A DNA stretch of 64,000 nt from Tritrichomonas musculus (taxonomy: Eukaryota > Parabasalia > Tritrichomonadida > Tritrichomonadidae), in NCBI GenBank assembly GCA_039105265.1, contig JAPFFF010000008.1, positions 620,001 to 684,000 of the forward strand, given 5' to 3'. The translations under genes were made by a program, and so were the position numbers. Shown in pieces: positions 2,443-30,499 of this stretch. The notes below the pieces were generated by a model. That model saw only the letters and a list, made by a program, of their open reading frames with translations. It ran no database searches and had not been told where the DNA came from. The stretch's first letter is position 1, and every line of letters begins with the position of its first letter.

Positions 2443-3900
2443 ATGACAAATACAGCTTCAACTACGATTGCACTTAGGAATCAAGTTCCTGTTATCGATA
2501 TATCTGGAATCCAGTATACCTTAGAAGATATTGCAGATATGACAAGAGCAGAACGAAATGCATTAGTTGCTAGTCATCCTGATATATTACGTATCCAATA
2601 TCATGGAAGAGAGTGGTTTAATGTTTATGATTTGTTTTATAATGACCAACTCATTATCCATAATAATGTATTTCAACGAAGGACTCTAATAAGACCAGCT
2701 GATATTGAGATGACAGATAGAATACATAGAGCTACTGATAATAATTGGTCAATAGAATGGGAAGGAACAACATACACAGCGAGAGATATTGAACAATTAT
2801 CTATGCAAGACAGATTAAATTTACCATTTGTACAAAATGGAGATATTGGATTAGAACCTTACTTGAATGACCAAACAATGGAAGCATGGATAAATATTAT
2901 TGATCATAGAGGAGAGACTATTGACCCAATTGTTGCTACTATTGATTATTCAGCACCAACAACAGCAAATATTAGTGGAGGTCAAGTACGATTTGTTGGA
3001 ATTAATTCACAGATAGAAGTTAATGCAAATGGAGTTAGATATCAACATTATGACCTTGTTGCCACAACAGATACTTGGACAGTACCAGGAACAACACCAG
3101 CAATAACAGCAAGAATGATAGAACAAATGAGTGATGAACAAAGAGGGGAACTAATGGATAATATTTATTCTCATGGTAATCTTTTAGCTTTTAATGACAC
3201 ATTAGATGAAACAACTGGTGAAGAAATAACACAAGTACTATATAATGGAAATGTAGTTGCTACAATAGATAGAAGAAGACTACATGTAATTAATATTGTG
3301 AATGGAGTGATAGAAATGTACCAACAAGATGGTGTTATAAGTGCAACTACCCAGGTTATTATGGGAGCAGTAGGTTATGTTGCTAGAAGGTTCTTACATG
3401 GTCAATGGCAGTTTGTTAGACATCATCCGGGTGATGCAGCAGCTATAGCAGGAGTAGCAGCAGAAGCATATGTAGCAAATAGAATAGGATTATTTTATAT
3501 TCCAAGTTGGTTCCGTCGTAATGATAACCCAGAGACATTAGCAGAGGAAGATGTATTAGAAAAGATTCTTGCATGGGCATATCATGAAGAAACAGATGAT
3601 GAACCTGAACTTGAAATAACAATGAAGGATGCTGATAAGATGATGGTTTCATTTGATACATGTATTAATATTGCAAAGACATATCGCGATACTTTAAAGG
3701 GTACAATAGCATTCATGTGCGAGAAAATCAAAGAGCTTGAAAATAAGTCAAGTACAAAACATCCATTAGAAGATATAGATATGACTACTTATATTACTAA
3801 AGTAGAAGTGAAGGAAATGATAGACCAGAAGGATGCATATATTGATACTCTTGAGGCAAGACTTGCAGCACTTGAAGCTAAATGCGCTAACATCGAATGA
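2443..3900 (+). CDS. Fibre-like/coiled-coil protein, second gene of the probable Maverick cassette
   Basis: A 485-residue protein of unknown function. The N-terminal two thirds are beta-rich in character, with repeated short 'T.RDIEQ(L/M)S.(Q/E)(D/Q)R' type segments near residues 115 and 225. An Ala-rich stretch (DAAAIAGVAAEAYVANRIG, about residues 328-346) could contact a membrane. The last 85 residues form a heptad-like coiled coil, similar to the end of the next gene (IKELE..., DTLEARLAALEAK). The ATG at 2443 is the first in frame, but the frame is open and protein-like (Thr, Asp and Glu rich) from about 2300, so the ancestral protein may have been longer. The stop at 3900 is 19 bases before the next ATG. 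I do not recognise a named family. Confidence 0.55.
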   Translation: MTNTASTTIALRNQVPVIDISGIQYTLEDIADMTRAERNALVASHPDILRIQYHGREWFNVYDLFYNDQLIIHNNVFQRRTLIRPADIEMTDRIHRATDNNWSIEWEGTTYTARDIEQLSMQDRLNLPFVQNGDIGLEPYLNDQTMEAWINIIDHRGETIDPIVATIDYSAPTTANISGGQVRFVGINSQIEVNANGVRYQHYDLVATTDTWTVPGTTPAITARMIEQMSDEQRGELMDNIYSHGNLLAFNDTLDETTGEEITQVLYNGNVVATIDRRRLHVINIVNGVIEMYQQDGVISATTQVIMGAVGYVARRFLHGQWQFVRHHPGDAAAIAGVAAEAYVANRIGLFYIPSWFRRNDNPETLAEEDVLEKILAWAYHEETDDEPELEITMKDADKMMVSFDTCINIAKTYRDTLKGTIAFMCEKIKELENKSSTKHPLEDIDMTTYITKVEVKEMIDQKDAYIDTLEARLAALEAKCANIE

Positions 3901-3919
3901 GAAGTTTTATTTAACTAAA

Positions 3920-6517
3920 ATGAGTGATACTACTACAAGATTTAAAGGAGATATACAGTTTAAGATAGGGGATGCTACTCGAAAAGGTAGCCAGTTATTA
4001 ACATTGGGTGACTTAGATAACTATGTACAGACAGGTCATTTATTTAATGAGGTCGAAGGTTTACCAGAAGTTGATATTAAAAATAAAAATATACAGTATG
4101 TATCATTTGAGTCTTCAACAACAACTTACAATATCCTTAAGTTTGTTAATTTGCCTGAAGACTTCATTAATAAGCTCAACGAAATAAAAACCCAGACTAA
4201 TATATTTAAGGTTGTCTTGAGGAAAAATATAGTATATGATACAAGTGGTAATTTAGTCAAGGAGTTCTACATATATGTTAAGGATGGTCAAGTATATTCT
4301 CCTTTGATAACTAAAAGTAGTAATGGATGCAGTATAAATAATAGTACCATTATGGGATATATGAATATAGCTTTTGATAGTAAACTAGACTTCAACCCAT
4401 ATACCTTGTGGCTGAATGGGGAGTTGAGCATAATGAATGAATATATAACTGATTCTTTACAGACAGAGAAGGCAATAAAGTGTTCTATAATAAAAGCTGA
4501 TAATGCATTAAGTTTACGTAAAAGCGATGTACTATACTTATATAAGCCTACATCAACTAGTCAGGTTGTGATAGAAAACAAGAAGTATTGGTTACTTCAA
4601 TGGAACATAGATACTGGATATACTATACCTAATGACTTAGAGTTTAGGTTTAATGAGTATTGTTTTGGTAATAAGTGGTTTTTATCATGGGATGGCACAA
4701 AATGGGTAGGTGATAACATACAAGGTCATATCAATGGTAGATTAGTTAATGGATTAAATAAGGAGAATGAGTATGGTGAAGATGGTACCTACATACAAGT
4801 CAAGAGGAGTGAGAGGAACATGAAACTGATTAATAAGCCTAATGACTACTCTCCTGATAACATACTACATTACATGATTCATGGAGGTAAGTGCAAAATA
4901 GACTGTTTTGTAAAATTAAAGACAGGGGAGATAGAACCTTTTTCGAAATATGGTCTAGGATATCAAACAAGTCAAGGAGGTACAAAAGATGGATATGATA
5001 TAGAAGCAATAAGGTGCTATAAGATGAATAATGCTACTAAAAAATTAGAAACTAGTGCTATTGATGAGCTCTACCTAGATATAACTCTTGAAGGTTCTAA
5101 AAATGCAAATAGGTTCTCAGTTCGACCTACTGGAAAAGAAGGCAATGGAGGAGACAAGGTATGGTTGTTCTTACATGGTGTACTTGATTCATGTGAAAAG
5201 CTTGAATATACATATGCAGCTTCGACTACTAATGACTCAAGGGATATTAAGATATATTTAGCTGATGAATATGTTGACCCAATAGATGAGGTTCATTGGG
5301 ATTCAACTACTAACCCATTCGAGTATATCATTAAGCAGCAATTTTATGAAGTATCCCCAAATCCAAATGGGGCAACAACCTTATATACTGATTATAATAT
5401 TACCTCCTCTAAGATAATAACAGCTGATAATATTACTACTATGAGGAGTGATTTAAACTTAGTTACCAATAATGTAGATGTTATTAGCTATGATGTTAAC
5501 GAAATGAACACTGTTATGGAAAGTCTAAAAGGTAGAGTCACAAGGACTGAACAAGTTACTCAACATCTGGAGGATGATGTAGATAATTTACGTATAGTCT
5601 CATGGACTGCATTAGCTTTTGGAGTTGCAGGTACTGCTGGGTCAATAGGTTCTATTGGTATGCAGCTATTTCCAGATGGTATAAGCTTTCCTACCATAAA
5701 AGGTGGAGGATTCCTTAAAAGGTTATTCTCTCATAAGTCAACCAAAGGTATGAGTGATTTGGTTAGAAATAGCATTAACTTCATGTCAGGTACTACAGCA
5801 AGAAGCATAACCAAAGATATAACACCTATAATTACCTGGTGTGAGGAAGAGTATAAGCAACTAGATGAACTACCTTTTACTGATGAGAATGATAACCCTG
5901 ATACAGGAACCTTGACATTAAGTGGTGCTATGGATATCAGCAATATGTTTAGGGACTCACTCAAGCCTTGTTTCAAGTTGTTAGCTGAGAAGGTCAATGA
6001 GCTAGAGGCAGAGTTTGATAACTACCCTACTGTGGATGAAGCTAATGAAGGTCTAGAAGTACTTATACGTAGGATAGAGACATTAGAGGGTGAAAATATC
6101 GCATTAAAAGATACTATAGCAGCAATGGAAACTAGGTTAACTGCATTAGCGAATAGATTAACGCGAATTAAGTATACATTCAGCGTACCAAATAGTACTA
6201 GCATTCGTTACCAATTCGAACAACCATTTGATGCATATGAGGCAACCCTCTATTTGACATATCATGAAAACAAAAATAACGTTACCAGTGAAAAAGAAAT
6301 TAAAATTAATATATCATTCAATGTTAAGAATTCACCTACGAGTGAATATCAATGTGAACCAACTAAGATCTGGTTAAACAATATTGAATTTCCATTAAGT
6401 AGTGGCAATTTAGTGGTCAATGCAACCGCTAATTTCATAGCGATTAATTCGACATTCTTTACATCAAATGGTATCTTAGCTGAAGATAATACCAAGAATG
6501 AGATACATTCATTATAA
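3920..6517 (+). CDS. Fibre-like protein with coiled-coil stalk, third gene of the probable Maverick cassette
   Basis: The start is placed at 3920 (MSDTTTRFKGD). A longer open frame from 3833 only adds residues overlapping the previous gene. The product is 865 residues. It contains the same Trp-rich block (LYLYKP...QWNIDTGY...NKWFLSWDGTKWVG) and the same QQFYEV...TDYNI.SSKI.TADN block as the first gene, so the two are paralogs. Then come a coiled-coil segment, a Gly/Ala hydrophobic stretch (WTALAFGVAGTAGSIGSIG), a second long coiled coil (LEVLIRRIETLEGE...) and a beta-rich C-terminal domain of about 110 residues. This order of globular head, stalk and hydrophobic patch fits an appendage or penetration protein of a virus-like element. 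No catalytic residues are visible. The GC-rich repeat tail begins right after the stop. Confidence 0.55.
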   Translation: MSDTTTRFKGDIQFKIGDATRKGSQLLTLGDLDNYVQTGHLFNEVEGLPEVDIKNKNIQYVSFESSTTTYNILKFVNLPEDFINKLNEIKTQTNIFKVVLRKNIVYDTSGNLVKEFYIYVKDGQVYSPLITKSSNGCSINNSTIMGYMNIAFDSKLDFNPYTLWLNGELSIMNEYITDSLQTEKAIKCSIIKADNALSLRKSDVLYLYKPTSTSQVVIENKKYWLLQWNIDTGYTIPNDLEFRFNEYCFGNKWFLSWDGTKWVGDNIQGHINGRLVNGLNKENEYGEDGTYIQVKRSERNMKLINKPNDYSPDNILHYMIHGGKCKIDCFVKLKTGEIEPFSKYGLGYQTSQGGTKDGYDIEAIRCYKMNNATKKLETSAIDELYLDITLEGSKNANRFSVRPTGKEGNGGDKVWLFLHGVLDSCEKLEYTYAASTTNDSRDIKIYLADEYVDPIDEVHWDSTTNPFEYIIKQQFYEVSPNPNGATTLYTDYNITSSKIITADNITTMRSDLNLVTNNVDVISYDVNEMNTVMESLKGRVTRTEQVTQHLEDDVDNLRIVSWTALAFGVAGTAGSIGSIGMQLFPDGISFPTIKGGGFLKRLFSHKSTKGMSDLVRNSINFMSGTTARSITKDITPIITWCEEEYKQLDELPFTDENDNPDTGTLTLSGAMDISNMFRDSLKPCFKLLAEKVNELEAEFDNYPTVDEANEGLEVLIRRIETLEGENIALKDTIAAMETRLTALANRLTRIKYTFSVPNSTSIRYQFEQPFDAYEATLYLTYHENKNNVTSEKEIKINISFNVKNSPTSEYQCEPTKIWLNNIEFPLSSGNLVVNATANFIAINSTFFTSNGILAEDNTKNEIHSL

Positions 6518-6981: not shown

Positions 6982-8500
6982 TTAATAAAATAATTTTACG
7001 TAAACATTCGGAAGTTTTTGGACAATAAGGCATGGCAGCTTATTTAAAATAAAACCTTGAGAAATAGTTGAAGATGCAAAAAAAGTATGAATCTCTCTTG
7101 GCTGAAGCTTCGGAACTTCGTTTGTATAATTTAATAATGTACCACAATAACATCTATTAGCGATAGTGAGTCTTGTATTTGTTGATGTTAATAATTGGTT
7201 AGATATATCTAGACGATTTGTTTGAATATTACCCAAATTTTGAATAGTTTGGTTAGTAAATTTATTACTTATTCCTTTTGTGGGGTCGAATGGGTAAATT
7301 CCTGTTTTTTCGAAGCTTGATTTTATCACTTCTGAACAAACGTTGTCTCATGCTTGTTTAATTGAATAAATTAATAATAAACGTTCTTTTGCTGCAACTG
7401 TTGCTAATTGATTTATTTGGCTAAAATTTTGGAAATTAATTTTTGAGCGATTAAGATGAGATTTGTAGCACGATGCTATAGTCACATCGATTGGCTGTAG
7501 AACATGCGTACATTGACTTGGTAATGTTAACAAATTGATATTATTGGCATATAAATATTCCAATACCAAACTATTAATTCTAGAATTATGATTATCAACA
7601 ATCAATAAAACCGTCTTTTTTGAATCACTAAAGCTCATATCTAATCTCAATTTTTGAATGTTGTGCGTAAAATAAATAATATAAGCAAGCCATAATTTCT
7701 GGGTCATCCACCCATTTTTTTGAGAACATATAGTATATTCAATATTTGAAAGTTCATCAGGAAGCTTTTTAACACCAGGAATAATAAGAAATGGATCCAT
7801 TTTTTGGCCATTTGCTGAAACTGTCAAAACTGTTGTCACTCTGTCTGAATATTTCGAATGAGGACAAATCGGAAATACGTGCTGATCAAGTAGGACTTTG
7901 TACTTCCTACTTGACTCTGCAGAAGTCTCGTCCGCATTCCAGATCATATTTCTTGGAGTCGAAGTTAAAATGTTTCTATGCTTTGTATAAAAAGAAGTCA
8001 TTGTTGAAACATTACAGAATCTTCGTCTAGCCTGTTCTAACAGAATTGGACTTTGTAATTTGATTTCATTGCTTTCACAAAAGTGTGTCAGCCAAGAATC
8101 TGATGGACAAAAGGTTCTTGTTCTCGTAAAATTTGTCTTTTTTTTTGGAGAAATTTGAGAAGTTCGTGACAGTTTCGATATCAGATATTGGGCTCTTAGG
8201 TATCTCTGCTCTTTGATATCCATTGCAATTTCAACAGCTTCAATTGTTTTAATGCAGTCCATCTCTGAACTTCTTTCATGCACAATTTGTATGAATTTCT
8301 CTCGGTCAACGTTACTAAAATAACCATCACTTCCTCAACAAAGCTTTCCTGGTTCCCAAAAGTTTCCTCTTATTGTATTATTGACACAAATCGAAATGTT
8401 TCCTTTGGACTTTAATCTATATTTTTCATTTATAGTTACATCTTCTAATCCTATAAGTACATCATTACAAATTTGAATTTGTACTTCTGAAAAAAAAAAA
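6982..8500 (-). pseudogene. Broken pogo/CENP-B-like DDE transposase
   Basis: The main uninterrupted segment (7348-8283) has the catalytic DDE order of this superfamily: first Asp in NADET, second in LIVDNHNS, third in the LPSQCTHVLQPIDV block. The frame continues past a TGA (codon at 7348-7350) into the typical C-terminal segment with FEKTGIYPFDP (6982-7329). Upstream the frame also continues, past another TGA (codon 8335-8337), through an open segment to a long T-rich (poly-Phe) tract, with no clear helix-turn-helix domain and no intact ATG. At least two in-frame stops and the lost N-terminus make it non-functional as written. It lies immediately right of the GC-rich tail, so either element may have inserted beside or into the other. 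Confidence 0.8.
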
Positions 8501-11028: not shown

Positions 11029-13431
11029 ATGGATCAAATTAAGCATGGTAATCAATTTACTCTTGGAAAATCTGCCATAGTGAAGAAACCAGAATTAGTT
11101 GAAGTTGGTGATAATGTTAGAATATCGGAATTTTGCTACATATCTTCAGCTTGCAAAATTGGATCCAATTGTGAAATAGCAATTGGCGCTTCAGTTGCAG
11201 GAGGAAATGGGCATTACACGTTTACAATGGGGGATTATTCATCTCTTGCAGCAGGTGTTAGAATATGGCTTGCAAGTAATGATTATGTCAACGATCTTAT
11301 TGCTCATAATGTGCCTTATGTTAAAGAAATCGAGGGAAATGTTACAATGGGGAAATTTACCGGTATTGGAACCAATACAGTTGTTATGCCAAATAATAAT
11401 ATTCCTGAAGGCGTAAGTATTGGTGCCCTCAGCTTTGTTCCTTCCAACTTTAAATTCAAACCATGGACAGTTTATGCAGGCTCACCTATTAGAGAAATCA
11501 AACCAAGAAATAAAGAAAATATTCTTAAAGTTCTTAAATTAATTGAAGGAAAAGAAATCTGTGGAATTATTGGCTACGCAGGTAACAGAAATTGCACATC
11601 TGTTCTTCTTAAAGGACTTGAAAAACTTGAATACAGGGGATCAGATTCAGCTGGAATTGCAATTATCGATGAAAGTAAAACCAAAATTTTCAAAACTACA
11701 GGAACAATTCAAAATTTAGTAAATACAATCGCAAAATCTACAGTTAACAACTGTAATGTCGGAATTGGTCATATTCGTTGGGAAACTACCGATAAACCAT
11801 TGGATGTAAATGTTCCACCCCATGCAAGCAATTGTGGCAAAATGGCAATTGTTCACAACGGCAATATTGAAAACTATCAATTGCTTCGCAAAGAACTTGA
11901 AGAAAAAGGATCAATTTTCAAATCAGATACTGATACAGAAATGATTGTTCATCTTATTGCAGCAGAATACAATGAAACACACAATTTGTTAACCTCTGTA
12001 CAAAACGCCACTAAAAGATTAAGAGGGACATACGCATTTTGCGTTATCCATGAAGATGAACCAGAAAAAATCATTGCGACAAAAAGGTTTGCTCCTCTTA
12101 TGATTGGTATTTCAGAAAATGAAAATATTGTTGGAAGTGATATGGCAGCCATCAACCAAATTACAAACCAAGTTATTGAACTTGATGATAAAGATGTCGC
12201 AGTTATTACAGGAAATAATGTTGAAATTCGAAATGGCAACAACGATGTGATAACCAAAGAAATTACCTATTTACCTGTTCAAAATGATAATCTTCAAAAA
12301 ATGGGCTACAAACATTTTCTTTTGAAAGAAATTCATGAACAACCAAAGGTTATTGAAAGAAATCTTAAGCTTAGAATCAAAGATATCGATTCAATCGTTA
12401 ATTTCCCCGAACTTGAGAAGATCAAGCCAATTTTATCAAAAATACAAAATATTAAAATTGTTGCAGCCGGCTCTTCATTAAATGCAGGAATAACTGGAAA
12501 ATATATAATTGAAGATTTAACTGGCATTACGGTAGAAACAGCTAGTTCAACCGAATACATTTATCATAATAATACAACCAATTCATCATCATTAGTAATT
12601 GGTATTTCTCAATCAGGCGAAACAAATAATACAACTTCTTCAATTCAAATAGCAAAAGATAAAAAAGCGACAATCATTGTATTAACAAATAATCTAGAAA
12701 GTTCAATTTGCAAATTAGCCGATTGCGTTATTCCTATAAACTGTGGAACTGAAATCAGTGTAGCTGCAACCAAATCTTACACAGCTGAGCTCTTACAGCT
12801 ATATGTTTTTGCTCTTTACCTTTGTGAACTTCAAAATAAAAACATTGAAAAGGTTAAAGAAATCAAAAAAGAACTTTTAACAGTCCCATCCAAAATGGAA
12901 GAAGTTTTAAACAACAAAAGCGTTATTGAAGAAATGTCAAATCCTTTGAGTACTTTCAAAGATTTCATTTATGTTGCAAATGGAACCAATTTTGCTACTG
13001 TCACTGAAGGTTCCCAAAAGATTAAAGAAATAAGTTATATAAATGCTTCATCGTGCTTTGCAGGTGAATTAAAACATGGACCAATTGCAATGATTGATAG
13101 AAATATCGCAATCCTCACTATTTTGATACCTAATCAAATTACATACGTTAAAATGCTACAAAATTGCGCTGAAATTAAGGCGAGAAATGCTACATTGATC
13201 GCTCTTACATCTTCAAATGATGTTCAACTAAACGAATTTTGCGACTTTATTATTAGGATTCCAGAAATAAGCGAACAACTTTCACCACTTATTACAATAA
13301 TTCCTCTTCAATTACTTGCCTACTATATTGCTGACTTCCTTGGTAAAGAAATTGATCAACCAAGAAGTCTTGAAAAATCAGTTACTGCGGAAAATGATAT
13401 AAAAACTCCTCCTTTCTTTGAAGAGTTTTAA
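11029..13431 (+). CDS. Hexapeptide acyltransferase fused to glucosamine-6-phosphate synthase (GlmS-like)
   Basis: An 800-residue protein. Residues 1-160 form a left-handed beta-helix acyltransferase of the bacterial sugar O-acetyltransferase kind (hexapeptide turns, GDYSSLAAGV, ending PWTVYAGSPIREIKP). Residues 178-800 are a full-length GlmS: glutaminase domain (CGIIGYAG, LEYRGSDSAG, GIGHIRW, VHNG, SDTDTE), then two SIS domains (AAGSSLNAG, SQSGET, TEGSQKIKEISY, ELKHGP) and the C-terminal PRSLEKSVTAE. GlmS makes glucosamine-6-phosphate from fructose-6-phosphate and glutamine. Oddities: Cys178, the expected nucleophile, is not N-terminal, and the preceding codon is ATC where a separate gene would have ATG. 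The positions of E. coli His77 and His86 are Thr254 and Pro263, while Arg250, Asn277, Gly278 and Asp302 are kept. Isomerase residues (Glu667, His683, Lys783) are kept. A sugar-modifying role is likely; glutamine use is uncertain. Probably of bacterial origin. Confidence 0.88.
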   Translation: MDQIKHGNQFTLGKSAIVKKPELVEVGDNVRISEFCYISSACKIGSNCEIAIGASVAGGNGHYTFTMGDYSSLAAGVRIWLASNDYVNDLIAHNVPYVKEIEGNVTMGKFTGIGTNTVVMPNNNIPEGVSIGALSFVPSNFKFKPWTVYAGSPIREIKPRNKENILKVLKLIEGKEICGIIGYAGNRNCTSVLLKGLEKLEYRGSDSAGIAIIDESKTKIFKTTGTIQNLVNTIAKSTVNNCNVGIGHIRWETTDKPLDVNVPPHASNCGKMAIVHNGNIENYQLLRKELEEKGSIFKSDTDTEMIVHLIAAEYNETHNLLTSVQNATKRLRGTYAFCVIHEDEPEKIIATKRFAPLMIGISENENIVGSDMAAINQITNQVIELDDKDVAVITGNNVEIRNGNNDVITKEITYLPVQNDNLQKMGYKHFLLKEIHEQPKVIERNLKLRIKDIDSIVNFPELEKIKPILSKIQNIKIVAAGSSLNAGITGKYIIEDLTGITVETASSTEYIYHNNTTNSSSLVIGISQSGETNNTTSSIQIAKDKKATIIVLTNNLESSICKLADCVIPINCGTEISVAATKSYTAELLQLYVFALYLCELQNKNIEKVKEIKKELLTVPSKMEEVLNNKSVIEEMSNPLSTFKDFIYVANGTNFATVTEGSQKIKEISYINASSCFAGELKHGPIAMIDRNIAILTILIPNQITYVKMLQNCAEIKARNATLIALTSSNDVQLNEFCDFIIRIPEISEQLSPLITIIPLQLLAYYIADFLGKEIDQPRSLEKSVTAENDIKTPPFFEEF

Positions 13432-18961: not shown

Positions 18962-21900
18962 TTATTTTTGCTTTTTCTGTACAATAAATGAAATAGCCTG
19001 CGTTTTTTTGATAGCCAATCTTGTGTGATGAGCAGAAGATATATCGAACGATTCAGCGTATGATGAAAATGCTGTCTTTTTAACAGACTCAATAATCAAC
19101 GGTTTTGGCACATACAAAGAAAACTTCTGGAAATTTTTCTTTTTAATATCATTTTCACCAGAGACGAAAAACTGAGATCTTTCGATATTTCTTCTTATTT
19201 CATCTTTTGTTTGGCAAGACTTAGACTCAGTTGTTTTACTGATTTTTTGAGGCACAATGTGTGCCACTGTCAAATTGTCTTCCAAATGAAGAGTTGAAAA
19301 CAACTTCGGACGAGTTACGCGAAGGTGATAAAAAGAGAAAGTTAAAGAAGGCTTTATTTCTTTCTGTTCAAAGAACAAATTTGTGTCAACTTTCAATGGG
19401 ATGAAAGAACTTCGCGGAAGTAGTGAAAATTGAGTGATTTTGCCAGATTCTCTCAATAAAGGCGAATTAGCAAACAAACTCGTTTCTTCATATGAAAACG
19501 GATTTGAAATGAACAATCTTCTTCCCAAACCGTTTCTATTCAAATAAAACAATGAATCACTATTTCCTGCAAATTGTCCCAAAGGTTCAACGTCTTCAAT
19601 AGTAACAGTTACAAGAAGATAAACTGAATCAGATTTATCTTTTTTGTTTTCAATAGTTGAAGAAGAATTTGTTGTTTCTGTTTCTGTTTTTGTTTCTGCT
19701 TTTGTTGGTTCAATTGAAATAATTTCATTCGAGTTGGTGAGGCTGCATGTTGCCGTTCGCTGCTTAAGGTGACTGAAAACTGCATCACTCTTTGATGAAA
19801 GACGTGTTTGAAGCGAGTCAATTTGAGAAACGAGTTTGGCATTTGTTTCATTCAATGAACGAATTTCGCCGAAATGTTTCGCAAGCATCTGTTTTGTTGA
19901 CTCTTTAAAGAGTTCGAATTTACGATTCAAAGAATCAAGAGCAACTTCTTTCTTAACAACTTCTCTCTCCAATGACTTGATCTCGCCAATTTGTCTACTT
20001 ATGAGTTTCTTGCACAAATCAATGTTACTGAAAACAGGCGAATTAAAGTCAACATTTCCAATAACTTGATTTCCATTCGTGTCTTCTTCCTCTTCTTCAA
20101 TTATTTGGTCAATGCTTTTCCTTTCAGGCGGAATGAAGAATGGACTCGAACTCGTTATTGAAAGCGACTGGTCAATTCCCTCATTTTCATCATACATTTC
20201 AAACCGTTCTTGAAGCTGTTGCTGATTGTTTGAGAACTCGAAAAAGAGAGGAAATGAAGCTTTGATTTCAACATTGTTCGTCGAATCATACTGCTTCGTT
20301 GGATTCGTAGTGATTGGCAAATCTTCAACCAGCGGAACTTCAAACAACTCATTCACAACAATCTCTCTTTGAACTTTATCTTGAACTAAAACTTTTTCAT
20401 TGGAATGAACTTGTGCTTGAACTGGAACACTGTCATTGGAATGAACTTGTGCTTGAACTGGATCATTGTCATTGGAATGAACTTGTGCTTGAACTGGATC
20501 ATTGTCATTGGAATGAACTTGTGCTTGAACTGGATCATTGTCATTGGAATGAACTTGTGCTTGAACTGGAACATTGTCATTGGAATGAACTTGTGCTTGA
20601 ACTGGATCATTGTCATTGGAATGAACTTGTGCTTGAACTGGATCATTGTCATTGGAATGAACTTGTGCTTGAACTGGATCATTGTCATTGGAATGAACTT
20701 GTGCTTGAACTGGAACATTGTCATTGGAATGAACTTGTGCTTGAACTGGATCATTGTCATTGGAATGAACTTGTGCTTGAACTGGATCATTGTCATTGGA
20801 ATGAACTTGTGCTTGAACTGGATCATTGTCATTGGAATGAACTTGTGCTTGAACTGGATCATTGTCATTGGAATGAACTTGTGCTTGAACTGGAACATTG
20901 TCATTGGAATGAACTTGTGCTTGAACTGGATCATTGTCATTGGAATGAACTTGTGCTTGAACTGGATCATTGTCATTGGAATGAACTTGTGCTTGTGCTG
21001 GCTGTTGTTTATTGACCAAAGTTGTTTCGTTTTCTTTTGGCTGTATTTGGAGTTGAGAGTGATTCAAAGACAAATCAAAGTTGGTGCTCTCATGACTTGA
21101 TGATGGAACTTCAAAATAAAGATTCTTACTTTCATGGAGATCAACTTTTTGATAACTTGTAGAAAGAAATTCATTTTGATCGTCTTCAGGAACATTTATC
21201 GAATTCAGCCCTTGTCCAATCGAAAGAGTTGCTGGCCTGACATTTTGGGTTTTTGTGCTTGGTTCAATATTTATTGAATTCAGAGAGAGTTGCTCCAAAT
21301 TTGATTCCTTCTCTTTGTTTATGTCAGCAACTTCGGATGAATAGAAGTCACAATTTGGCGGCTGTTTTTGCATTGAATTCATATTTGGCTCGATATTTAT
21401 TGAATTCAAAGAAAGATGCTCCAAACCTGACTGTGGCTCTTTGCTGATGTCAGCAACTTCTGATGAATAGAAGCCACAAGATTGTGGCTGCTTTTGAATT
21501 GAACTTGCATTTGGCTCTATATTTATTGAATTCAAAGAAAGCTGCTCCAAATGTGCATTGCTTGGCTTGCTTATGTCAGCAACTTCAGATGAATAAAATT
21601 CACGCAACAATGAATGATTCGTCTGATCATCAGAAATGATTTGAACTTCTTTTTCAACCGAAATTTGCTTCTTCTGCTGATCATCTTGCGCATCTTGGCT
21701 TTGATTGTTGACATAGAAATAGTCGCTCTCTTTTGACAATGGCTTCTTACTTGCTTCTTTTTTGTCGTTTTCAATTTCAACGAAGAATGACTTAGTCTGA
21801 TCCAAGTCCAGCTTTTTATTGGACTTTTCTTCTTGACTAGCAAATTGAGTTCCTTCTTCGTTGTATTGTTTTTCAGCCTCATAAGTGCCTGGTGATATGT

Positions 21901-24900
21901 CAAAACGTCCAAAAGCGCTCGTCATTGAGAGTGATTTTTTCTCTTTGCTAGAAGAATCAACAACAGCCTGAGCAGTTACTTGTGATGCTATTTCAAAGCT
22001 GTCGTAAACAGTTCTGAATTGTTTATCTTTTGGTGAAATCTTTTCTTTCAAAGGAGATTTTATTTCAAAGCAACCGAAAACAGTGTCCATTTTTGTGCCT
22101 TTCTTTTTCATCAGTGATTCATCAGTTTGTGATTCAACACATTGCCTAGAAATTTCATCAAAAGATCGTGAATGAATCAAGCTTGCCTGATGGAATTCGC
22201 GCTCGTCATCAATTGACAAATCCAAATCACGATGCTGGCTCGATTTGGTTTGGTTGGAGTTCACAGAAAATGATCCAAAAATCATCGTCAGTGGACGCTG
22301 GTCTTTCTTGATTGTGAAAGAATCCAAGTTTTCCAAGCTTCTTGATGTTTTCATTTGAGGAACTTCATTGCTGCCATTCTCTTCAAAATAAAACTGCGAG
22401 TCACTGTTTACACTCAGTTTTGCTTTTGAAGCTTGCCTCGTTTTGATTGGTGAATTTGATTCAGGCTTGAGATAGAGTCCGCCAAAAACTTGAGTCATTC
22501 GGATCGGATTACTTTTCTCAAAACTCATCAAATTAGAAATCTCAAAATTGCTTTCTTTACTTTTATCTTGACTAGTTGACGAAACAATAACTTTTTCTTT
22601 GTTGAAATTGGAAAGCCGCTGCTGTTCTTGATTGGCAAAAATAGTTCCGTTTGAAGCCAGCTCATATTTTGTTTGCAGTCTTTCTTTATGTTCTTTCTTG
22701 CCTTGTATGGAGATTAGTGTCAGGGGCTCACTTTCTTTATAATCAACTTTTTCTATTGAATCGGATTGATCAACTTTTTGATTACTTTCTATTACTTCGA
22801 TGCTCTTACTGATTGGTTGCTTCTGGGATTCTTTTTGATTGATATTAATTGCATCAAAATGCGATGAAGTCAAATTCACTCTTTTCTCTTGTTCTTTCTG
22901 GACAGACACAATGTTAACGAGGCCACTTTGCTCAAATTCAATACTATCTCTATTTGATGGATTCATTTCAGCCTTTTCTAGTGAGTCTGTTTGATCAGCT
23001 TTTTGATAATTTCCTGTCTCTTCGATGCTCTTGTTGATTTGCCGCTTCTGGGCTTCTTTTTGATTTATATCAATTACATTAAAATGGGATTGTGTCAAAT
23101 TCGCACTTTTCTCTTGTTCTTTATGGACAGATGCAATGCTAACAAGGCCACTTTGCTCAAACTCAACGTCTTCTTTATTTGAATTGCCAATTTCAACTTT
23201 TTCAAATAAATTCGTTTGATCAACTTTTTGGAAACTATCCGTTTCTTCGATGCTCTTGCTGATTGGTTGCTTTTGGACTTCATTTTGATTTATATCAATT
23301 GTATTAAAATGCGAGTGAGCCAAATTCACGGCCTTTTCTTGCTCCTTTTGAACAGACACAATGCTAACAAGGCCACTTTGCTCCAATTCAATGTCTTCTT
23401 TATTTGAATTGCTGATTTCAACTTTCCTTGGCTCCTGCTCGAATAAGAGATGATTAGAGTATTCATTATCATGCTGGATGCCGTTTCTGTTTGCCTCATT
23501 TGTTTCAGAAGGCTGCTCTACTTCATTTGATGAGAAAATCGAAACAGGCAAACTTTCATGAAACTGCTTAGAATCGCTAGAAAAGTGAAATTCATTCACT
23601 TTTTGATCTAATTTCAAAGAAACCGATTTTCCTTCAAAATCTGAACGATCACTTTGAGTCGAATTCATTTCAGAGATATCGACCATTCTTGATATTTCAC
23701 TCAGTTCAAAGTTAGCTCGCTTGACATCAATTGGCTCCACTTCATGTAATGCTTGGCTATTCTCAAATATGCTGTAATTAGCGCTCATTGATAGACTTTT
23801 CTGTTCTGAACTAGCTTTATCATCTAAATCAGCCAGTTCATGCTTTCTGACTTCATCCTCCTCTTGGCTGATATCAAGGTTTGTTTGCGCTTCTATTGTG
23901 AAGTCCAAGTTTTGATCTCTGACAGGAATTGAAGCAATTGTTGTCAAGTCATTCATCTGGAAAGATGGATTATCTTTTTCTTTGGTTATTTCAAGCTGCT
24001 TTTGGTGAATCAGTTCCATTTTCTTTGAGTTGCCATTCGCAAACACAACCTCATCTGAAGCAAGCTCAAAGTTATTTGAAGACGCTTCTTCTTTTTGAGT
24101 GAAATTGGCAACAGTTTCAACTCCAACATTGTTGAAATGATGATTATGATCTTCATCAAAGAAATCTTGATCAACTGGTGAGCTATTTTGAAGAATACAA
24201 ACTTTTTCAGTGTTCTCCAAATCATCTTCTGTTTTAACAAAAGTTGTTGGCGACAATGATAACTCCAACTTGGATGAAACGTTTTTAACATCATCATCAT
24301 CATCATCAAGTGCCTTATTCAAAGACAGAATTGTTGTCAAATTACTGTTTTCAAATGTTGGATTGATGCTTTCAGTCTGAGTTTGATTGCTGCTCAAAAC
24401 ATCACTCGAAAGCTCTTTTTTTGGCGGAATGTTTATCTGGTCGCTTTCTTGAGATGCCATTTGATATGATTCAGGCTGGGAATTCGAAAGCTTTGCTTGT
24501 TGAACAGGCTTTTCTTTAATCAATAAAGGTGGATTTTGTTGGAACGAAAGATGAAAAGTATTTTTATTAACATTTTCATTGTCTTGCTTCATTGTAATAT
24601 CAGTGATTGTTGTAATTAAGCTTTGTTCAAATTGAGGAAGATTTTGGTCTGAATTTGCATCACAAGATTGTGAATCACTCAATGATAAAAGAGGATTGGA
24701 ATCATCACTTTGTGTTTGCGCTGTTTTCTTTCCACTTTTTGCCTTCTTTTTATGATCTTTTTCTTTATTATCATCAGTTTCAACACAAAAAGTTCCACTT
24801 GTGAATAATATGGCAACTTTATCCAATCGACTGACAGGCAAATCATCATTCGTTGTTTGAACAGAAATTTCACTTCGATCATTTGTAATATGCTCTTTGA

Positions 24901-27900
24901 GGGATTTCATTTTAGGACTGAATTTTACGTCTTTTTGTGTTTGTTTCATCTTCTTTTTGCGTGGAATTTTATCATTGTCATCATTATTAATAAAGAAGCC
25001 TTCATTTTTGCTCATTGAAAGGATCTTTTGTTGGCTGCCGTTGTCTTCTTCTGTTTCAGTCAGCTGATCAACAAGATTTGTAGGTGAATTTTGTACATTA
25101 CTTTCTGATGGTTTCTTTGTTTTAACACTTCTTTTTGCTTCTCTGGACTTGAACGATTCAGAAGCAACGACTTGGCTTTGCTCAAGATCGTTTTGAATAG
25201 AAGTATTTTCATATGCAACCGATTGAGATAACTCTTTTCTTCTTTCAAATGGTTTCTCAGTGATATTCAAATTATCTTCAACTTGATTTGAAGTCAGAGA
25301 CAACGAATTGCTTTGTTTCAACGGCGTTTTTTCTTCACCTTTTCTAATTGCACTTGTTGTAGGCTCACTTAATTCAAAATGAGGTAAATCATTTTCATCA
25401 TTTTCTGGTATTGAATTGATTGTACTCAATTCACCATTGTCAATCGTTAATGACTCATTAACAACAAATCTGGAATTGTTATTTGGAGTGCTTATTTTTC
25501 CAGATTGAATGACAACATCGTTTGGAATGTCAGCAGTGAAAATTTCACTCCTGATAAGTTCTTTTGTTGGCGAAACTGAAGAAAAGCTTGATATGACGTT
25601 CATTTCACCGGGCTCAAAAGAATGTTTTGCTTTTATTTGCTTACTTGAATGCGAACCATTAGATTTTGCTTTAGTCAAGTTGGTTGACTGTGGATCACTT
25701 GTAGAAAAGTGAGGAATTTCCTTTCTTTTTGGCGTTACAAAGTTATCTTTATTTTGTTCTTCTTTTTCATTGTCAATTGAATCTTCCTCTTCATCCTCTT
25801 CTTCATCTTCAACATTCGGAAGAGATCCAACATTTCTCTCAAATTCTTTGTTTTGTTCTTGTGTCAATTTTTCATCAAATTTAATTGAAACAATCGTAAA
25901 GATTTCACTTTCTTCAATTTTTATATTAGAAATGTCTTGATCTTCTTCATCTTCATCTTGATCTTCTTCTTCCTCAATTAGAATTAATTCTTGCTTTCGT
26001 TCTTCTAAATCTTCGTCATTTTCTGGCTCAGACTCCAATGACTTAGCTTCCTTTTCAATGACTTGAGGTGGCTTAACATTTTGAAGATTCGAAATTGTTG
26101 ATGGTTCACTTGTTGTAAATGATGGAACTTCTTTAGGCTGCTTATTTTTCTTTACTTTCAGTGAATTATGTCTTTCATTATTAGATTCAGTTTCTTTTTC
26201 ATCATTTTCAACAGTCACTTGCTCTGAAAGTGCCAATGAATGATCCTTCTGGCTTTCTTTGTCATGAGAATAGTTTATTGATGCAATTGTAATCATTTCA
26301 CTTTCATTTATACTGATTTCATTTCTCTCTTCTTCCTCTTCTTCTTCAAAATCATCAAGTGATTCAGGCGATTTTGTTATTGAAGATGAATCAGAGACAA
26401 CATCATTATAATTTCTTTCAATGCATTCAATTTGGCTTTGCTGGAGACTTTTCTTTTGTGATGATTGAGAAACAGTTGCAATCGCTGATGGTTTGCTTGT
26501 GGAAAACGAAGGAATCTTCTTTACATTTTTCACTCTTGATTTATCAGAGGATTTGGCAGGCTTTACATTGTCTGAAGTGAAGTTGTTTTCATTGTCATTT
26601 GCGTTCTCAATGACTACTTGCTCTGATAGAATTAATGAGTCCTTTTGCATTCGATCATGATAAGAAATGCTATTTATCGATGCAATTGTTGTCAGATTAC
26701 TTTCACTTATATTCAGGCCACCAAATTCATCTTCATGTTCATCGACTTCTAGAGTTTTGTCTAAATCAGGTTCTTCGTTATTTTTCTCTATCGATGAGGC
26801 TTGGCTTTGATAAAGCTTTTTCTTTTGTGATGAATGCTGTATGTGAGACAGTGATGAAGGCTCGCTTGTCGAGAAAGCAGGAATTTCTTTTGTTTTCTTT
26901 TGCTTAGCTTTTCTTTGTTTCGCCTTTGACTCATTCACATTCAATGCTTCGCTGCCTTTTTCAATCACGGATTGCGTTGATTGAGCAAGTGAAATCCTTT
27001 GTTTTTGGCTCTCGTATGGAACATAATTGACTGATGCAATTGTTGTTGGCTGACTTTCATTAATATTAATTTCATCAGAAATTTCTTCTTCCTCTTCTAT
27101 GTTTTCTGGATCTTGATCCATGCTTTCCAGCGATTTTTCTTCATAACTTGTTTCTGTTGCTGCTACTTGACTCTGATAAAGTTTGTTCTTCTTTTGCTGA
27201 GGAGAATACTGAATGCTTGCTAAAGATGAAGGCTCGCTTTGTGAAAAAGATGGAATTCGTTGTTTGTCATTTCGTTTGACTTGATGAGATTTCGTTGGCT
27301 TAGCTTGTGGTTCATCTTTTTTAGTAGCTTCAGTATTAGTGTCATTCTCAATAATGAATTGTTTAGAGAGAACAAGAGAATTATCGTGTTTCTGATCTTG
27401 ATAAGGGATGTAATTGATCGATGTTATTGTTGTTGGTTCACTCTCATTTATGTTAACTTCATTTTTGATTTCTTCATGTTCTGGTTCTTTTTGTTCTTGG
27501 TCTGATTTTTCATCATTAATGTCAATTCCGATAGAAGAGACCTGACTTTGCTGAAGCTTTTCCTTTGGCGATGAATACTGAATACTCATTATCGTTGAAG
27601 GCTCGCTTGGTGAAAACGAAGGATTTCGTTTGGCTTGATTAGATTTCGTTGGCTTAGCTTGTGGTTCATCTTTTTTAGTAGCTTCATTTCTAGCGCCATT
27701 TTCAATAATGAATTGTTTAGAGAGAACAAGAGAATTATCGTGTTTCTGATCTTGATAAGGGATGTAATTGATCGATGTTATTGTTGTCGGTTCACTCTCA
27801 TTTATATTAGCTTCATCATGTATTTCTTCATGTTCTGGTTCTTTTTGTTCTTGGCCTGATTTTTCATCATTAATGTCAATTCCGATAGAAGCGACCTGAC

Positions 27901-30499
27901 TTTGCTGAAGCTTTTCCTTTGGCGATGAATATTGAATGCTCAACATTGTTGAAGGCTCGCTTGTTGAAAACGAAGGAACTTCTTTCTTTGAAATCTTTCG
28001 CTTTATTTGATCAGCTTTTGGTTGAGTTTGATTCTTTTTATCAATTTGATTGGTTTCATTTTCAACAATAATTTGCTTTGAGAGAGCAAGTGATCCTTTC
28101 TTATGGGCTGCATTAGGAATGCTGCTTATTGATGCAATTGTTGTTGGCTCACTTTCATTAATATTTATTTCCTCAACATCAACATCATCTTCTTCAAACT
28201 CTTCTTGATTTATATTTTGGCTCGAGTTTTGTTTGTCTTTTATTTCTGTCGCTGCAATTTTGCTCTGCTGCAGTTTCTTGCTTTGAGTAGCTGGATGGAT
28301 GTTTGCGAGAGAAGAAGGTTCGCTTGCAGAAAACACTGGAATTTGCCTTTTCTTTTTCTTCTTATTCTTTGGCTGATCATTGCTTAAACCAACAACTTTT
28401 TCACTAGAATTTACTGAGCTTTCTTTCAGTTGACATTTATTTTGGTCAAATTTATTTGAGGCAATAATTTCAATTTCGCTCTCAATAATTGTTTCTTTAT
28501 CAAGCTGATCATTCTCTTCATTGTCGATGCCACTAAATGAAATTTCAGAGTTTGTATTTTGCGGACTGAATCTAATGTTTGCCATAGTTGAAAGTTCACT
28601 TGTTGAAAAACTAGGAGCATCAATACGAATCGCTTTTTGACTTCCAGACAAACTAACTTCATCACTTTTATCTACAACACTTGATGCTTGGCCTTGCTCA
28701 GGATTAAATTTAACTGATATTATAGGAGTAATATCACTCTCTTTGATATCAGCAGAGTCATTTATATTGCTTTCATTTATATTCAATGATGAACTGTCAT
28801 TTGAAGGCGAAATCTGAATCAATTTGTTGGCCTCTTTTTGAGGGCTGTATCGTATATTTGCCATTATTGAAGGCTCACTTGTTGTAAAGCGAGGAATTTG
28901 CTTTTTATTTTTCTTTTTAGAACCAGTTTCAATAGCTATTTGGTCAAGCTTTTCAAAGCACAAAATATCACTTTCTTGAACTCGTTTTTGGGCTGGTATG
29001 AAATCAATTGATTCCATTGTAGTCACATCGCTTTCTCTGATTTCTTCACTCATTGTTGACTCAGATTCAGTGAAAACAACTCCACTGCTCTTCAAGTTGT
29101 CTATTTGAGGACTGTATCGTATGTTTGCCATTGTAGATGGATCGCTAGTTGAAAAGCGAGGAACTTTGTTTTTCTTTGGAGTCACATTTAAAGATTCATG
29201 TTCATTATTTAAAGAACTTTCAAGAGTTTCATTTATTTGTTGTTCAACATCTATTGAAATAATTGTTTCAAAATCACTCTCACCGAATTTTGGCGCTGCT
29301 TTTCTGCCAAAATCAAGAAACGAAAGAGAACAAATTTCTAATTCATTATCAGAAGGAATGATTGTGTTTACACTTTTATCTGTATATTTCACGGCTTTCT
29401 TTTCAGACTTTTGCTTGATTTGATCTTCACCAAAGGAAAACGATGAAATGGATTCAATCGGACTCATTCCAAACGGTTTAACTTTTTGATTGTCTAATTC
29501 AAAAGTTTTTTCTTTGGATGAATAATAAACAGGATCACTAATTAAAGTTGAAATATCAGTTTTTGCATTTAGATCAGAATCATTTTGTTTTGAATTAAAT
29601 TGAATAGGCTCTTCTGAAAAGTTGATCGGCTTTTTGCTTTTAGTTTGTGTTTCTTTTTTAACTGAGACTTTTATATCAGATGAAGTAGGATCATTATCAT
29701 CATCAATTTCTTTCTGATCAGTGGTACTACTATTTCCATATTGTTCAAACATATCAAATGAAGAATCGAAAATTAATTTATTTGGTCTATCCATGGCATT
29801 TTCATCGTAAAATTCGATATTTTGTGTTTCTTCGATGGATTCCTGATTCATTTTGATGAGGTCAACGTTAAATGAAGATGTTTCAGAAAATTCATAATTG
29901 TAATTTAATTCTAGATCAATACATTGTCGATAAGCTACAGAATTATCTGAAATATGAAATTTAAAATCATTATTTTCTTTTTCATCTTCATTTGATTCAA
30001 GTACTTGGATATTATCTTCAAAAGGAGATGAAATTGAAGTTACAGGCGAAACTTGAAAAGAAATAGATCTGCAATCTTCTTTACCAAAAAGAATATGGAG
30101 ATTACTAAAAGAAAAATTCGGATTATTATTACTTTTCTCTGGAAGATGCAAATCTGCTTTTTCATCTGGTAAAACTGAAATCGAAAAAACAGGATTATTA
30201 ATTTTCTTGGAAAAATCTTGCGCTTCTTGCTGGTTAGGAGGGATACTAATTTTGTTAAGTTGCTCAAACGAAAATATTTTGGGTTTATTATGGTTAATAT
30301 TTAAATTTTCTGTATCGGTACATTTTTTATCTTCTTCTTTGTGAGAAATTATAACGTTTTCATTACATAAATTGGATTTTTGATCGTTATCTTTAATTTC
30401 AAAAACAGGAAAAAGATCTGAAATGAACAGATGAGCCCTGCCTTGATTTGGTTGATTTTTTTCGATATTAGGCAGGGAAGATTTGCTCCCTACCTTCAT
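18962..30499 (-). CDS. Giant 3845-residue intrinsically disordered repeat protein
   Basis: A single intronless frame of 11.5 kb, starting MKVGSKSSLPNIEKN. I do not recognise a named domain. The protein is acidic, rich in Ser, Glu, Asn, Gln and Lys, and mostly disordered. It is built from repeats. (1) A degenerate motif S-E-P-(S/T)-T-(I/M)-x-(S/N)-I-x-(Y/F) recurs more than 25 times over residues about 440-2600. (2) Three copies of a 75-residue module lie at about 2360-2580. (3) Four M-(T/D)-x-(V/I/A)-F-G-x-(F/L) motifs lie at about 2660-2860. (4) Three about 44-residue copies contain FYSSEVADI and LSLNSINIEP, at about 2960-3080. (5) Seventeen copies of a 12-residue unit lie at about 3168-3371. 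A coiled coil (about 3530-3600) precedes a C-terminal region that may fold (LLVTVTIEDVEPLGQFAG onward). There is no signal peptide or membrane segment. A scaffold or cytoskeletal role is a guess. Confidence 0.8.
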   Translation of the reverse strand: MKVGSKSSLPNIEKNQPNQGRAHLFISDLFPVFEIKDNDQKSNLCNENVIISHKEEDKKCTDTENLNINHNKPKIFSFEQLNKISIPPNQQEAQDFSKKINNPVFSISVLPDEKADLHLPEKSNNNPNFSFSNLHILFGKEDCRSISFQVSPVTSISSPFEDNIQVLESNEDEKENNDFKFHISDNSVAYRQCIDLELNYNYEFSETSSFNVDLIKMNQESIEETQNIEFYDENAMDRPNKLIFDSSFDMFEQYGNSSTTDQKEIDDDNDPTSSDIKVSVKKETQTKSKKPINFSEEPIQFNSKQNDSDLNAKTDISTLISDPVYYSSKEKTFELDNQKVKPFGMSPIESISSFSFGEDQIKQKSEKKAVKYTDKSVNTIIPSDNELEICSLSFLDFGRKAAPKFGESDFETIISIDVEQQINETLESSLNNEHESLNVTPKKNKVPRFSTSDPSTMANIRYSPQIDNLKSSGVVFTESESTMSEEIRESDVTTMESIDFIPAQKRVQESDILCFEKLDQIAIETGSKKKNKKQIPRFTTSEPSIMANIRYSPQKEANKLIQISPSNDSSSLNINESNINDSADIKESDITPIISVKFNPEQGQASSVVDKSDEVSLSGSQKAIRIDAPSFSTSELSTMANIRFSPQNTNSEISFSGIDNEENDQLDKETIIESEIEIIASNKFDQNKCQLKESSVNSSEKVVGLSNDQPKNKKKKKRQIPVFSASEPSSLANIHPATQSKKLQQSKIAATEIKDKQNSSQNINQEEFEEDDVDVEEININESEPTTIASISSIPNAAHKKGSLALSKQIIVENETNQIDKKNQTQPKADQIKRKISKKEVPSFSTSEPSTMLSIQYSSPKEKLQQSQVASIGIDINDEKSGQEQKEPEHEEIHDEANINESEPTTITSINYIPYQDQKHDNSLVLSKQFIIENGARNEATKKDEPQAKPTKSNQAKRNPSFSPSEPSTIMSIQYSSPKEKLQQSQVSSIGIDINDEKSDQEQKEPEHEEIKNEVNINESEPTTITSINYIPYQDQKHDNSLVLSKQFIIENDTNTEATKKDEPQAKPTKSHQVKRNDKQRIPSFSQSEPSSLASIQYSPQQKKNKLYQSQVAATETSYEEKSLESMDQDPENIEEEEEISDEININESQPTTIASVNYVPYESQKQRISLAQSTQSVIEKGSEALNVNESKAKQRKAKQKKTKEIPAFSTSEPSSLSHIQHSSQKKKLYQSQASSIEKNNEEPDLDKTLEVDEHEDEFGGLNISESNLTTIASINSISYHDRMQKDSLILSEQVVIENANDNENNFTSDNVKPAKSSDKSRVKNVKKIPSFSTSKPSAIATVSQSSQKKSLQQSQIECIERNYNDVVSDSSSITKSPESLDDFEEEEEEERNEISINESEMITIASINYSHDKESQKDHSLALSEQVTVENDEKETESNNERHNSLKVKKNKQPKEVPSFTTSEPSTISNLQNVKPPQVIEKEAKSLESEPENDEDLEERKQELILIEEEEDQDEDEEDQDISNIKIEESEIFTIVSIKFDEKLTQEQNKEFERNVGSLPNVEDEEEDEEEDSIDNEKEEQNKDNFVTPKRKEIPHFSTSDPQSTNLTKAKSNGSHSSKQIKAKHSFEPGEMNVISSFSSVSPTKELIRSEIFTADIPNDVVIQSGKISTPNNNSRFVVNESLTIDNGELSTINSIPENDENDLPHFELSEPTTSAIRKGEEKTPLKQSNSLSLTSNQVEDNLNITEKPFERRKELSQSVAYENTSIQNDLEQSQVVASESFKSREAKRSVKTKKPSESNVQNSPTNLVDQLTETEEDNGSQQKILSMSKNEGFFINNDDNDKIPRKKKMKQTQKDVKFSPKMKSLKEHITNDRSEISVQTTNDDLPVSRLDKVAILFTSGTFCVETDDNKEKDHKKKAKSGKKTAQTQSDDSNPLLSLSDSQSCDANSDQNLPQFEQSLITTITDITMKQDNENVNKNTFHLSFQQNPPLLIKEKPVQQAKLSNSQPESYQMASQESDQINIPPKKELSSDVLSSNQTQTESINPTFENSNLTTILSLNKALDDDDDDVKNVSSKLELSLSPTTFVKTEDDLENTEKVCILQNSSPVDQDFFDEDHNHHFNNVGVETVANFTQKEEASSNNFELASDEVVFANGNSKKMELIHQKQLEITKEKDNPSFQMNDLTTIASIPVRDQNLDFTIEAQTNLDISQEEDEVRKHELADLDDKASSEQKSLSMSANYSIFENSQALHEVEPIDVKRANFELSEISRMVDISEMNSTQSDRSDFEGKSVSLKLDQKVNEFHFSSDSKQFHESLPVSIFSSNEVEQPSETNEANRNGIQHDNEYSNHLLFEQEPRKVEISNSNKEDIELEQSGLVSIVSVQKEQEKAVNLAHSHFNTIDINQNEVQKQPISKSIEETDSFQKVDQTNLFEKVEIGNSNKEDVEFEQSGLVSIASVHKEQEKSANLTQSHFNVIDINQKEAQKRQINKSIEETGNYQKADQTDSLEKAEMNPSNRDSIEFEQSGLVNIVSVQKEQEKRVNLTSSHFDAININQKESQKQPISKSIEVIESNQKVDQSDSIEKVDYKESEPLTLISIQGKKEHKERLQTKYELASNGTIFANQEQQRLSNFNKEKVIVSSTSQDKSKESNFEISNLMSFEKSNPIRMTQVFGGLYLKPESNSPIKTRQASKAKLSVNSDSQFYFEENGSNEVPQMKTSRSLENLDSFTIKKDQRPLTMIFGSFSVNSNQTKSSQHRDLDLSIDDEREFHQASLIHSRSFDEISRQCVESQTDESLMKKKGTKMDTVFGCFEIKSPLKEKISPKDKQFRTVYDSFEIASQVTAQAVVDSSSKEKKSLSMTSAFGRFDISPGTYEAEKQYNEEGTQFASQEEKSNKKLDLDQTKSFFVEIENDKKEASKKPLSKESDYFYVNNQSQDAQDDQQKKQISVEKEVQIISDDQTNHSLLREFYSSEVADISKPSNAHLEQLSLNSINIEPNASSIQKQPQSCGFYSSEVADISKEPQSGLEHLSLNSINIEPNMNSMQKQPPNCDFYSSEVADINKEKESNLEQLSLNSINIEPSTKTQNVRPATLSIGQGLNSINVPEDDQNEFLSTSYQKVDLHESKNLYFEVPSSSHESTNFDLSLNHSQLQIQPKENETTLVNKQQPAQAQVHSNDNDPVQAQVHSNDNDPVQAQVHSNDNVPVQAQVHSNDNDPVQAQVHSNDNDPVQAQVHSNDNDPVQAQVHSNDNDPVQAQVHSNDNVPVQAQVHSNDNDPVQAQVHSNDNDPVQAQVHSNDNDPVQAQVHSNDNVPVQAQVHSNDNDPVQAQVHSNDNDPVQAQVHSNDNDPVQAQVHSNDSVPVQAQVHSNEKVLVQDKVQREIVVNELFEVPLVEDLPITTNPTKQYDSTNNVEIKASFPLFFEFSNNQQQLQERFEMYDENEGIDQSLSITSSSPFFIPPERKSIDQIIEEEEEDTNGNQVIGNVDFNSPVFSNIDLCKKLISRQIGEIKSLEREVVKKEVALDSLNRKFELFKESTKQMLAKHFGEIRSLNETNAKLVSQIDSLQTRLSSKSDAVFSHLKQRTATCSLTNSNEIISIEPTKAETKTETETTNSSSTIENKKDKSDSVYLLVTVTIEDVEPLGQFAGNSDSLFYLNRNGLGRRLFISNPFSYEETSLFANSPLLRESGKITQFSLLPRSSFIPLKVDTNLFFEQKEIKPSLTFSFYHLRVTRPKLFSTLHLEDNLTVAHIVPQKISKTTESKSCQTKDEIRRNIERSQFFVSGENDIKKKNFQKFSLYVPKPLIIESVKKTAFSSYAESFDISSAHHTRLAIKKTQAISFIVQKKQK
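20386..20998 (-). repeat. 36-base coding minisatellite, 17 copies
   Basis: The unit encodes QAQVHSNDNDPV. Copies are nearly identical in DNA, differing mainly at one base that switches GATCC-type (Asp) to GAACA-type (Val) codons. In protein order the Val-bearing units are numbers 3, 8, 12 and 16 of 17 (the last unit is degenerate, NEKVLV), which suggests growth by blocks of about four units. Because 36 is a multiple of three, the array is open in several frames on both strands. Confidence 0.95.
27252..27959 (-). repeat. Two nearly identical 354-base coding repeats
   Basis: Within the giant gene the segment around 27297-27530 (containing AQAKPTKS... and INESEPTTITSINYIPYQDQ in part) recurs about 354 bases further on with very few changes. 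It is the youngest visible duplication among the otherwise divergent SEP-type modules. Confidence 0.8.

Follow-up and report, generated by a model that had tools for sequence, protein, structure and literature searches.

The stretch of Tritrichomonas musculus DNA analysed here (64,000 nucleotides, hereafter the window) carries on its plus strand, at positions 11029..13431, a single reading frame from ATG to TAA that consists of 800 codons plus stop and contains no internal stop codon. T. musculus, a protist, lives as a commensal in the gut of laboratory mice. The first 176 residues (11029..11556) form a hexapeptide acyltransferase, with a Hexapep match at residues 25-54, and residues 7-163 match the solved hexapeptide acyltransferases 3vbi-3vbp (best E value 2e-21, phmmer), which are filed as galactoside O-acetyltransferase and which we take to be AntD, an amino-sugar N-acyltransferase. 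Compared with these enzymes the acyltransferase half is distant, and it is joined to GlmS. The fusion point, set by reading the codon and comparing the bacterial junctions, is the ATC codon of Ile177 (11557..11559), followed directly by the TGT codon of Cys178 (11560..11562), the aligned equivalent of Cys1 in E. coli GlmS. From this cysteine to residue 788 the protein matches the GlmS model TIGR01135 over the full model length (625.1 bits against a cut-off of 418.05), while the score with the model of SIS-domain GlcN-6-P deaminases (NagB-II, NF046059) is 134.2 bits, far under the cut-off of 430. This half is composed of a glutaminase domain (approximately residues 178-417; 11560..12279), located by sequence matches and by 1xff_A aligned over residues 178-417 of the structural model, and an isomerase domain of two SIS units (approximately residues 421-788; 12289..13392); the translation continues for 12 residues past the C-terminus of GlmS (13393..13428). 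The fusion of both enzymes and the isoleucine codon before the cysteine, both read from this DNA in an earlier note, are thus borne out, and so is the trichomonad host that it assumed. Likewise, as the note had it, Cys178 lies within the encoded chain, so that removal of the initiator methionine does not expose the catalytic cysteine as the N-terminus.

Elsewhere in the window, the product of 59570-61072 on the minus strand bears a transcription-initiator DNA-binding domain (IBD, PF10416), and a DDE_1 endonuclease-like ORF (PF03184), likely a transposase remnant, lies at 7348-8283, also on the minus strand. Two long adjoining ORFs without any Pfam match lie at 2443-3900 and 3833-6517 (plus strand), and one open frame of 3845 codons spans 18962-30499 (minus strand).

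The same frame is present in P0002, an 800-aa database entry (source tag 'lgn') with the same ...GKEICGIIG junction. P0002 differs from the window protein at four residues (209, 284, 397 and 557), and since the junction is identical despite these differences, a read error at codon 11557-11559, raised beforehand as grounds for doubt, is very unlikely. P0002 was the sole match at E<=0.001 for residues 1-185 among 663 candidates, in a search confined to proteins of similar length that share 5-residue words with the query, which remote fusions could therefore escape. Between 11501 and 11700 the sole ATG is located at 11669 and is out of frame, so that a stand-alone GlmS would have no AUG to start from close to the cysteine. 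The TCAYTW motif occurs once on the plus strand between 10601 and 11700, at 10654; its lack near Cys178 says little, because the gene's own start likewise has none nearby. It is therefore barely credible that the cell has no fusion at all, whether because of an assembly or base error or because GlmS is translated from a message and a start of its own: the fact that the two genes are separate in bacteria speaks for such a reading, but the junction in P0002, the lack of an in-frame ATG near Cys178 and, with little weight, the position of the TCAYTW motif speak against it. Bacterial contamination is unlikely as the source of the gene, because its GC3 values (0.21, 0.23 and 0.21 for the acyltransferase, glutaminase and isomerase parts) fall inside the range of 0.15-0.37 across the 19 window ORFs examined, and it is embedded in a contig of 6.2 Mb, at about 0.63 Mb. 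No account of this fusion was found in the literature searched, which was mostly open-access.

Both halves were described from the outset as bacterial-looking, and each indeed groups with bacterial sequences. The acyltransferase half as query yielded 289 proteins; among 120 of these 289, the best are stand-alone proteins of 176 aa with 84-85% identity, and the relatives reach at most 85%, placing this half in the bacterial hexapeptide acyltransferase family, for which no named member with an assayed substrate was found. In a genome collection we detected 13 acyltransferase loci; identity was 66-84% in 12, and in nine of these 12 (L007-L014 and L017) glmS follows directly as a separate gene. 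In both L007 and L008 the acyltransferase stop codon TAA is followed by one base and then GTG TGT GGT; the two genes overlap in L009 (TAATGTGC) and in L014, glmS starts 12 bases downstream of the acyltransferase in L010-L013, and the gap in L017 is 2 bases. L015, L016 and L018 have no glmS beside the acyltransferase. A wider set of 36 loci, partly overlapping the first (at least 7 of the 36 repeat places of L007-L014), gave glmS as the next gene in 21 of the 31 loci located by motif, one of the 31 being too short to tell; L071-L073, L094 and L098 were not located in this way. In bacteria, where the note proposed to look for the two-domain order, the two halves are thus separate neighbouring genes, a feature beyond the reach of the sequence-only note. 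The neighbours match the fusion in their products and gene order, but are two genes with their own stop and start, and their GlmS retains the pocket residues. To our knowledge this is new: the halves are adjacent separate genes in bacterial metagenome-assembled genomes, the majority of which are titled Alphaproteobacteria. Among all 12 loci this title is given for L009-L011, L013, L014 and L016-L018, the other titles being 'bacterium' (L007 and L008), 'proteobacterium' (L012) and 'Lactobacillaceae' (L015).

In phylogenetic trees both halves were grouped with L007 and L008, the GlmS half together with P0123, P0126 and P0127 as well, and support was 100 in each case. Among 104 stop-to-stop stretches of at least 80 codons in L007-L010, matches to the 64-kb window were solely inside the fused gene, and a scan of viral contigs gave no relative. 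The simplest donor would be the two-gene stretch. Since the halves are adjacent genes in bacteria, we infer transfer of a bacterial gene pair, which then became fused at its border. Ile177 may derive from the lost glmS start codon or, because the acyltransferase of L009 ends in ...GEI, from the final acyltransferase codon. 

Among the bacterial loci some irregular borders were observed. In L102 (G035:C65), the acyltransferase stop is followed at once by the opening codons of glmS (MCGLIGYIGNNAVA), which lead directly into the closing codons of that gene (LGREVDQPRNLAKSVTVE), indicating either an internal deletion of glmS or an assembly slip. The acyltransferase frames of L016, L100, L101 and L107 end in ...CAE, like those of L014 and L103 with an overlapping glmS; no glmS start was found in these four, which may be what is left where an overlapping glmS was lost.

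The two halves have evolved unequally, the acyltransferase at the usual rate and GlmS with acceleration in both of its domains. Identity to L007 is 83% for the acyltransferase half and 62% for the GlmS half of the fusion, the corresponding values for L009 being 80% and 68%. Relative-rate tests on three pairs each, which did not draw on the tree of that analysis with its partly fixed topology, gave chi-square values of 0.9, 0.2 and 1.0 for the acyltransferase, 3.9, 19.9 and 4.6 for the glutaminase, and 22.0, 16.0 and 30.2 for the isomerase. Except for one substitution (I56V), all of the 50 acyltransferase sites conserved at 99% are kept, the mean loss at these sites in 120 other members being 0.31 and the maximum 3. 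The acyltransferase is the most constrained part of the protein.

For the GlmS half, sites conserved in 126 bacterial GlmS sequences are altered in the fusion at 12 of 73 positions in the glutaminase domain and at 26 of 116 in the isomerase domain. By a family-only count the fusion differs at 14 of 79 and 38 of 145 sites, and the counts are similar or higher for E. coli GlmS (13 of 82 and 47 of 155) and for the two other GFATs of the host (17 and 23 of 79; 50 and 65 of 145); for this reason we limited the comparison to sites also common to these three enzymes (universal sites below), and the case for an altered pocket is built solely on the sites they share.

At universal sites, the fusion is altered in 6 of 47 positions of the glutaminase domain. 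Five of them belong to the 13 sites of the glutamine pocket, Q-loop or R-loop, namely Y28S in the R-loop (Ser205, 11641..11643), A75E, H77T and G78D in the Q-loop (E. coli residues 73-81; 11776..11802) and H86P (Pro263, 11815..11817), while only one of the 34 sites elsewhere is altered (I100N, adjoining Gly99); Fisher's test gave p 0.004 for a pocket set that was picked after the changes had been seen. Tyr28, Ala75, His77, Gly78 and His86 are shared by the bacterial relatives, E. coli GlmS and both other host enzymes. Human GFAT-1 is reported to hold glutamate in a pocket of Arg95, Trp96, Thr98, His99, His108 and Gly124 (PMC7000685), which by our reading correspond to E. coli Arg73, Trp74, Thr76, His77, His86 and Gly99. 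Three of the seven universal sites of the C-tail (E. coli residues 600-608; 13366..13392) are also altered (N600S, A602E and V607A). The channel tryptophan of hGFAT2 is described as packing on Tyr35, Arg33, Leu675 and Ala676 (PMC7948480), by our reading E. coli Tyr28, Arg26, Leu601 and Ala602, and the fusion has other residues at two of these four positions, Tyr28 and Ala602. In contrast, none of the ten universal residues of the isomerase active site is altered, Lys485, Glu488, His504 and Lys603 all being retained, while 7 of 44 universal sites elsewhere in the isomerase domain are changed. Isomerisation is attributed to Glu488, His504 and Lys603 (PMC9272926). Compared with GlmS/GFAT enzymes, the fusion therefore keeps the isomerase catalytic residues but departs from the family in the internal cysteine, in the conserved pocket with the Q- and R-loops, and in the C-tail with its channel gate (Ala602 region).

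These substitutions also bear on the proposal that the chain is cut before the cysteine. As a precursor cleaved between Ile177 and Cys178, autocatalytically or by a host protease, the protein would give rise to two working enzymes. Autocatalytic removal of a propeptide before the catalytic cysteine is described for GPATases (PMC7056826), the primary product of which has residues before that cysteine as does the fusion; however, the GPATase propeptide is short, whereas the fusion has a 176-residue enzyme in this place. Cys1 and several core residues (Arg26, Arg73, Trp74, Thr76, Asn98, Gly99, Asp123 and Thr606) are retained, as a working glutaminase needs, which argues for cleavage and against loss of the glutaminase. 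Nevertheless, if the glutaminase were set free and functional, the residues around the pocket should have been retained, but five universal pocket or loop residues and three C-tail residues that both other host enzymes keep are altered here. We know of no glutamine-using GlmS with such an altered pocket. Cleavage is thus less likely, and the precursor is in our estimate quite improbable. Among the options named in the note, a loss of glutamine use agrees better with these changes, and ammonia may or may not take its place.

A predicted structure of the fused protein was of middling quality (pLDDT 71.3 and pTM 0.52; most of the acyltransferase half is below 70), for which reason it was left unused for the surroundings of Cys178. 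The structure comparison spanned residues 178-782 and barely covered the acyltransferase half. A control model of the donor GlmS reached 81.0 overall, with values below 50 at 475-509. The R- and Q-loops of the fusion (201-205 and 253-256) are below 50 and those of the control are not, but both models are low in the C-tail, and we give this difference little weight.

The acceleration of both GlmS domains, and not of the acyltransferase, would also be expected if the acyltransferase alone were at work and the GlmS half were a passenger becoming a pseudogene. All four differences between P0002 and the window protein lie in the GlmS half, one of them at the universal Gly32, which is lost in P0002; this distribution (4 of 624 against 0 of 176 residues) is not significant. 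However, the frame is unbroken and contains no stop codon, whereas about 23 would be expected without selection (at least 13 in each of 30 runs), the isomerase active site is retained at all ten positions, and universal GlmS sites are altered more rarely (16 of 109) than other site classes (24-31%). We consider decay of this half unlikely.

Taken together, the protein most likely combines an acyltransferase with a sugar-phosphate module that derives from GlmS but works independently of glutamine, rather than being a GFAT. In the course of events that we regard as probable, a bacterial unit of hexapeptide acyltransferase and then glmS would have passed from a gut bacterium close to those of L007 and L008 into the lineage of T. 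musculus, and a small change at the border would have deleted the acyltransferase stop and the glmS start, giving one 800-residue protein. Because Cys178 would then no longer become the N-terminus with a free alpha-amine, glutamine hydrolysis would have been lost; the glutamine pocket, the lid loops and the ammonia-channel tail would have been altered afterwards, while the acyltransferase and the sugar-phosphate isomerase site were retained. The module may bind Fru6P or GlcN-6-P beside the acyltransferase, and its predicted activity is Fru6P/Glc6P isomerisation or ammonia-linked GlcN-6-P chemistry. A form of GlmS without glutaminase could still perform the former reaction, since hGFAT2 is reported to isomerise Fru6P to Glc6P without glutamine (PMC7948480); isomerase activity is not assured, because the isomerase domain is accelerated too. 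More specifically, the GlmS half could be a glutamine-independent isomerase, an ammonia-using synthase or a GlcN-6-P deaminase that shares one sugar with the acyltransferase, an idea that we put forward tentatively. The suggestion that one polypeptide aminates and then acylates one sugar remains in this range of possible functions. Hexapeptide acyltransferases are trimers and GlmS is a dimer, so that the fusion would need a larger assembly, perhaps of six chains.

The host has other enzymes for the route of amination and acetylation. Besides the one copy of the fused gene found in the host genome, there are two GFATs with Met-Cys starts, on contigs C11 (690 aa, MCGIF) and C30 (608 aa, MCGII), and a GNA1 on C11 with 34% identity to yeast GNA1 and a match to solved GNA1 (E value 9.3e-27). 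T. musculus pseudocysts are reported to stain for chitin (PMC10944700), the synthesis of which would consume UDP-GlcNAc; no connection with the fused gene was seen.

For the bacteria, we considered the acyltransferase as a substitute for a missing acetyltransferase half of GlmU, and rejected it since no complementary pattern exists: in the order of G004 the acyltransferase is carried by just 42 of 125 genomes, and by five of the six genomes with a separate C-terminal half of GlmU. In this order 120 of 125 genomes match GlmU at an E value of 1e-20, with one above the full-length cut-off, GlmU being nearly always the uridylyltransferase half alone and a separate C-terminal half being present in six genomes. 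In the putative donors G001-G003 no GlmU exceeded the cut-off, and in the family of G001 the acyltransferase was matched in 6 of 11 genomes.

Beta-lactam synthetase derives from an amidotransferase and retains a glutaminase domain that is idle, but it belongs to the asparagine synthetase family and involves no gene fusion. SIS-domain GlcN-6-P deaminases (NagB-II and GlmD) differ from the fusion, which still bears the glutaminase fold and scores far lower with NF046059. In Trichomonas vaginalis, a bacterial fragment of 27 genes (PMC4082486) represents joint uptake by a trichomonad followed by unequal fates, as here, but its abstract mentions no fusion, while the present case concerns two genes that are fused. 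The surprise is limited in so far as both the transfer of genes into trichomonads and the fusion of genes have precedents.

The locus illustrates a route from neighbouring bacterial genes to a single eukaryotic protein, and offers a view of what follows for an N-terminal-nucleophile enzyme once its nucleophile has been buried by fusion in a new host; before and after can be compared, because the separate gene pair persists in bacteria. The pattern of altered pocket and channel tail, with the isomerase site and the partner kept, yields clear and testable predictions. If the reading in which both halves share one sugar is true, a protist would have gained a new bifunctional amino-sugar enzyme out of two neighbouring bacterial genes.
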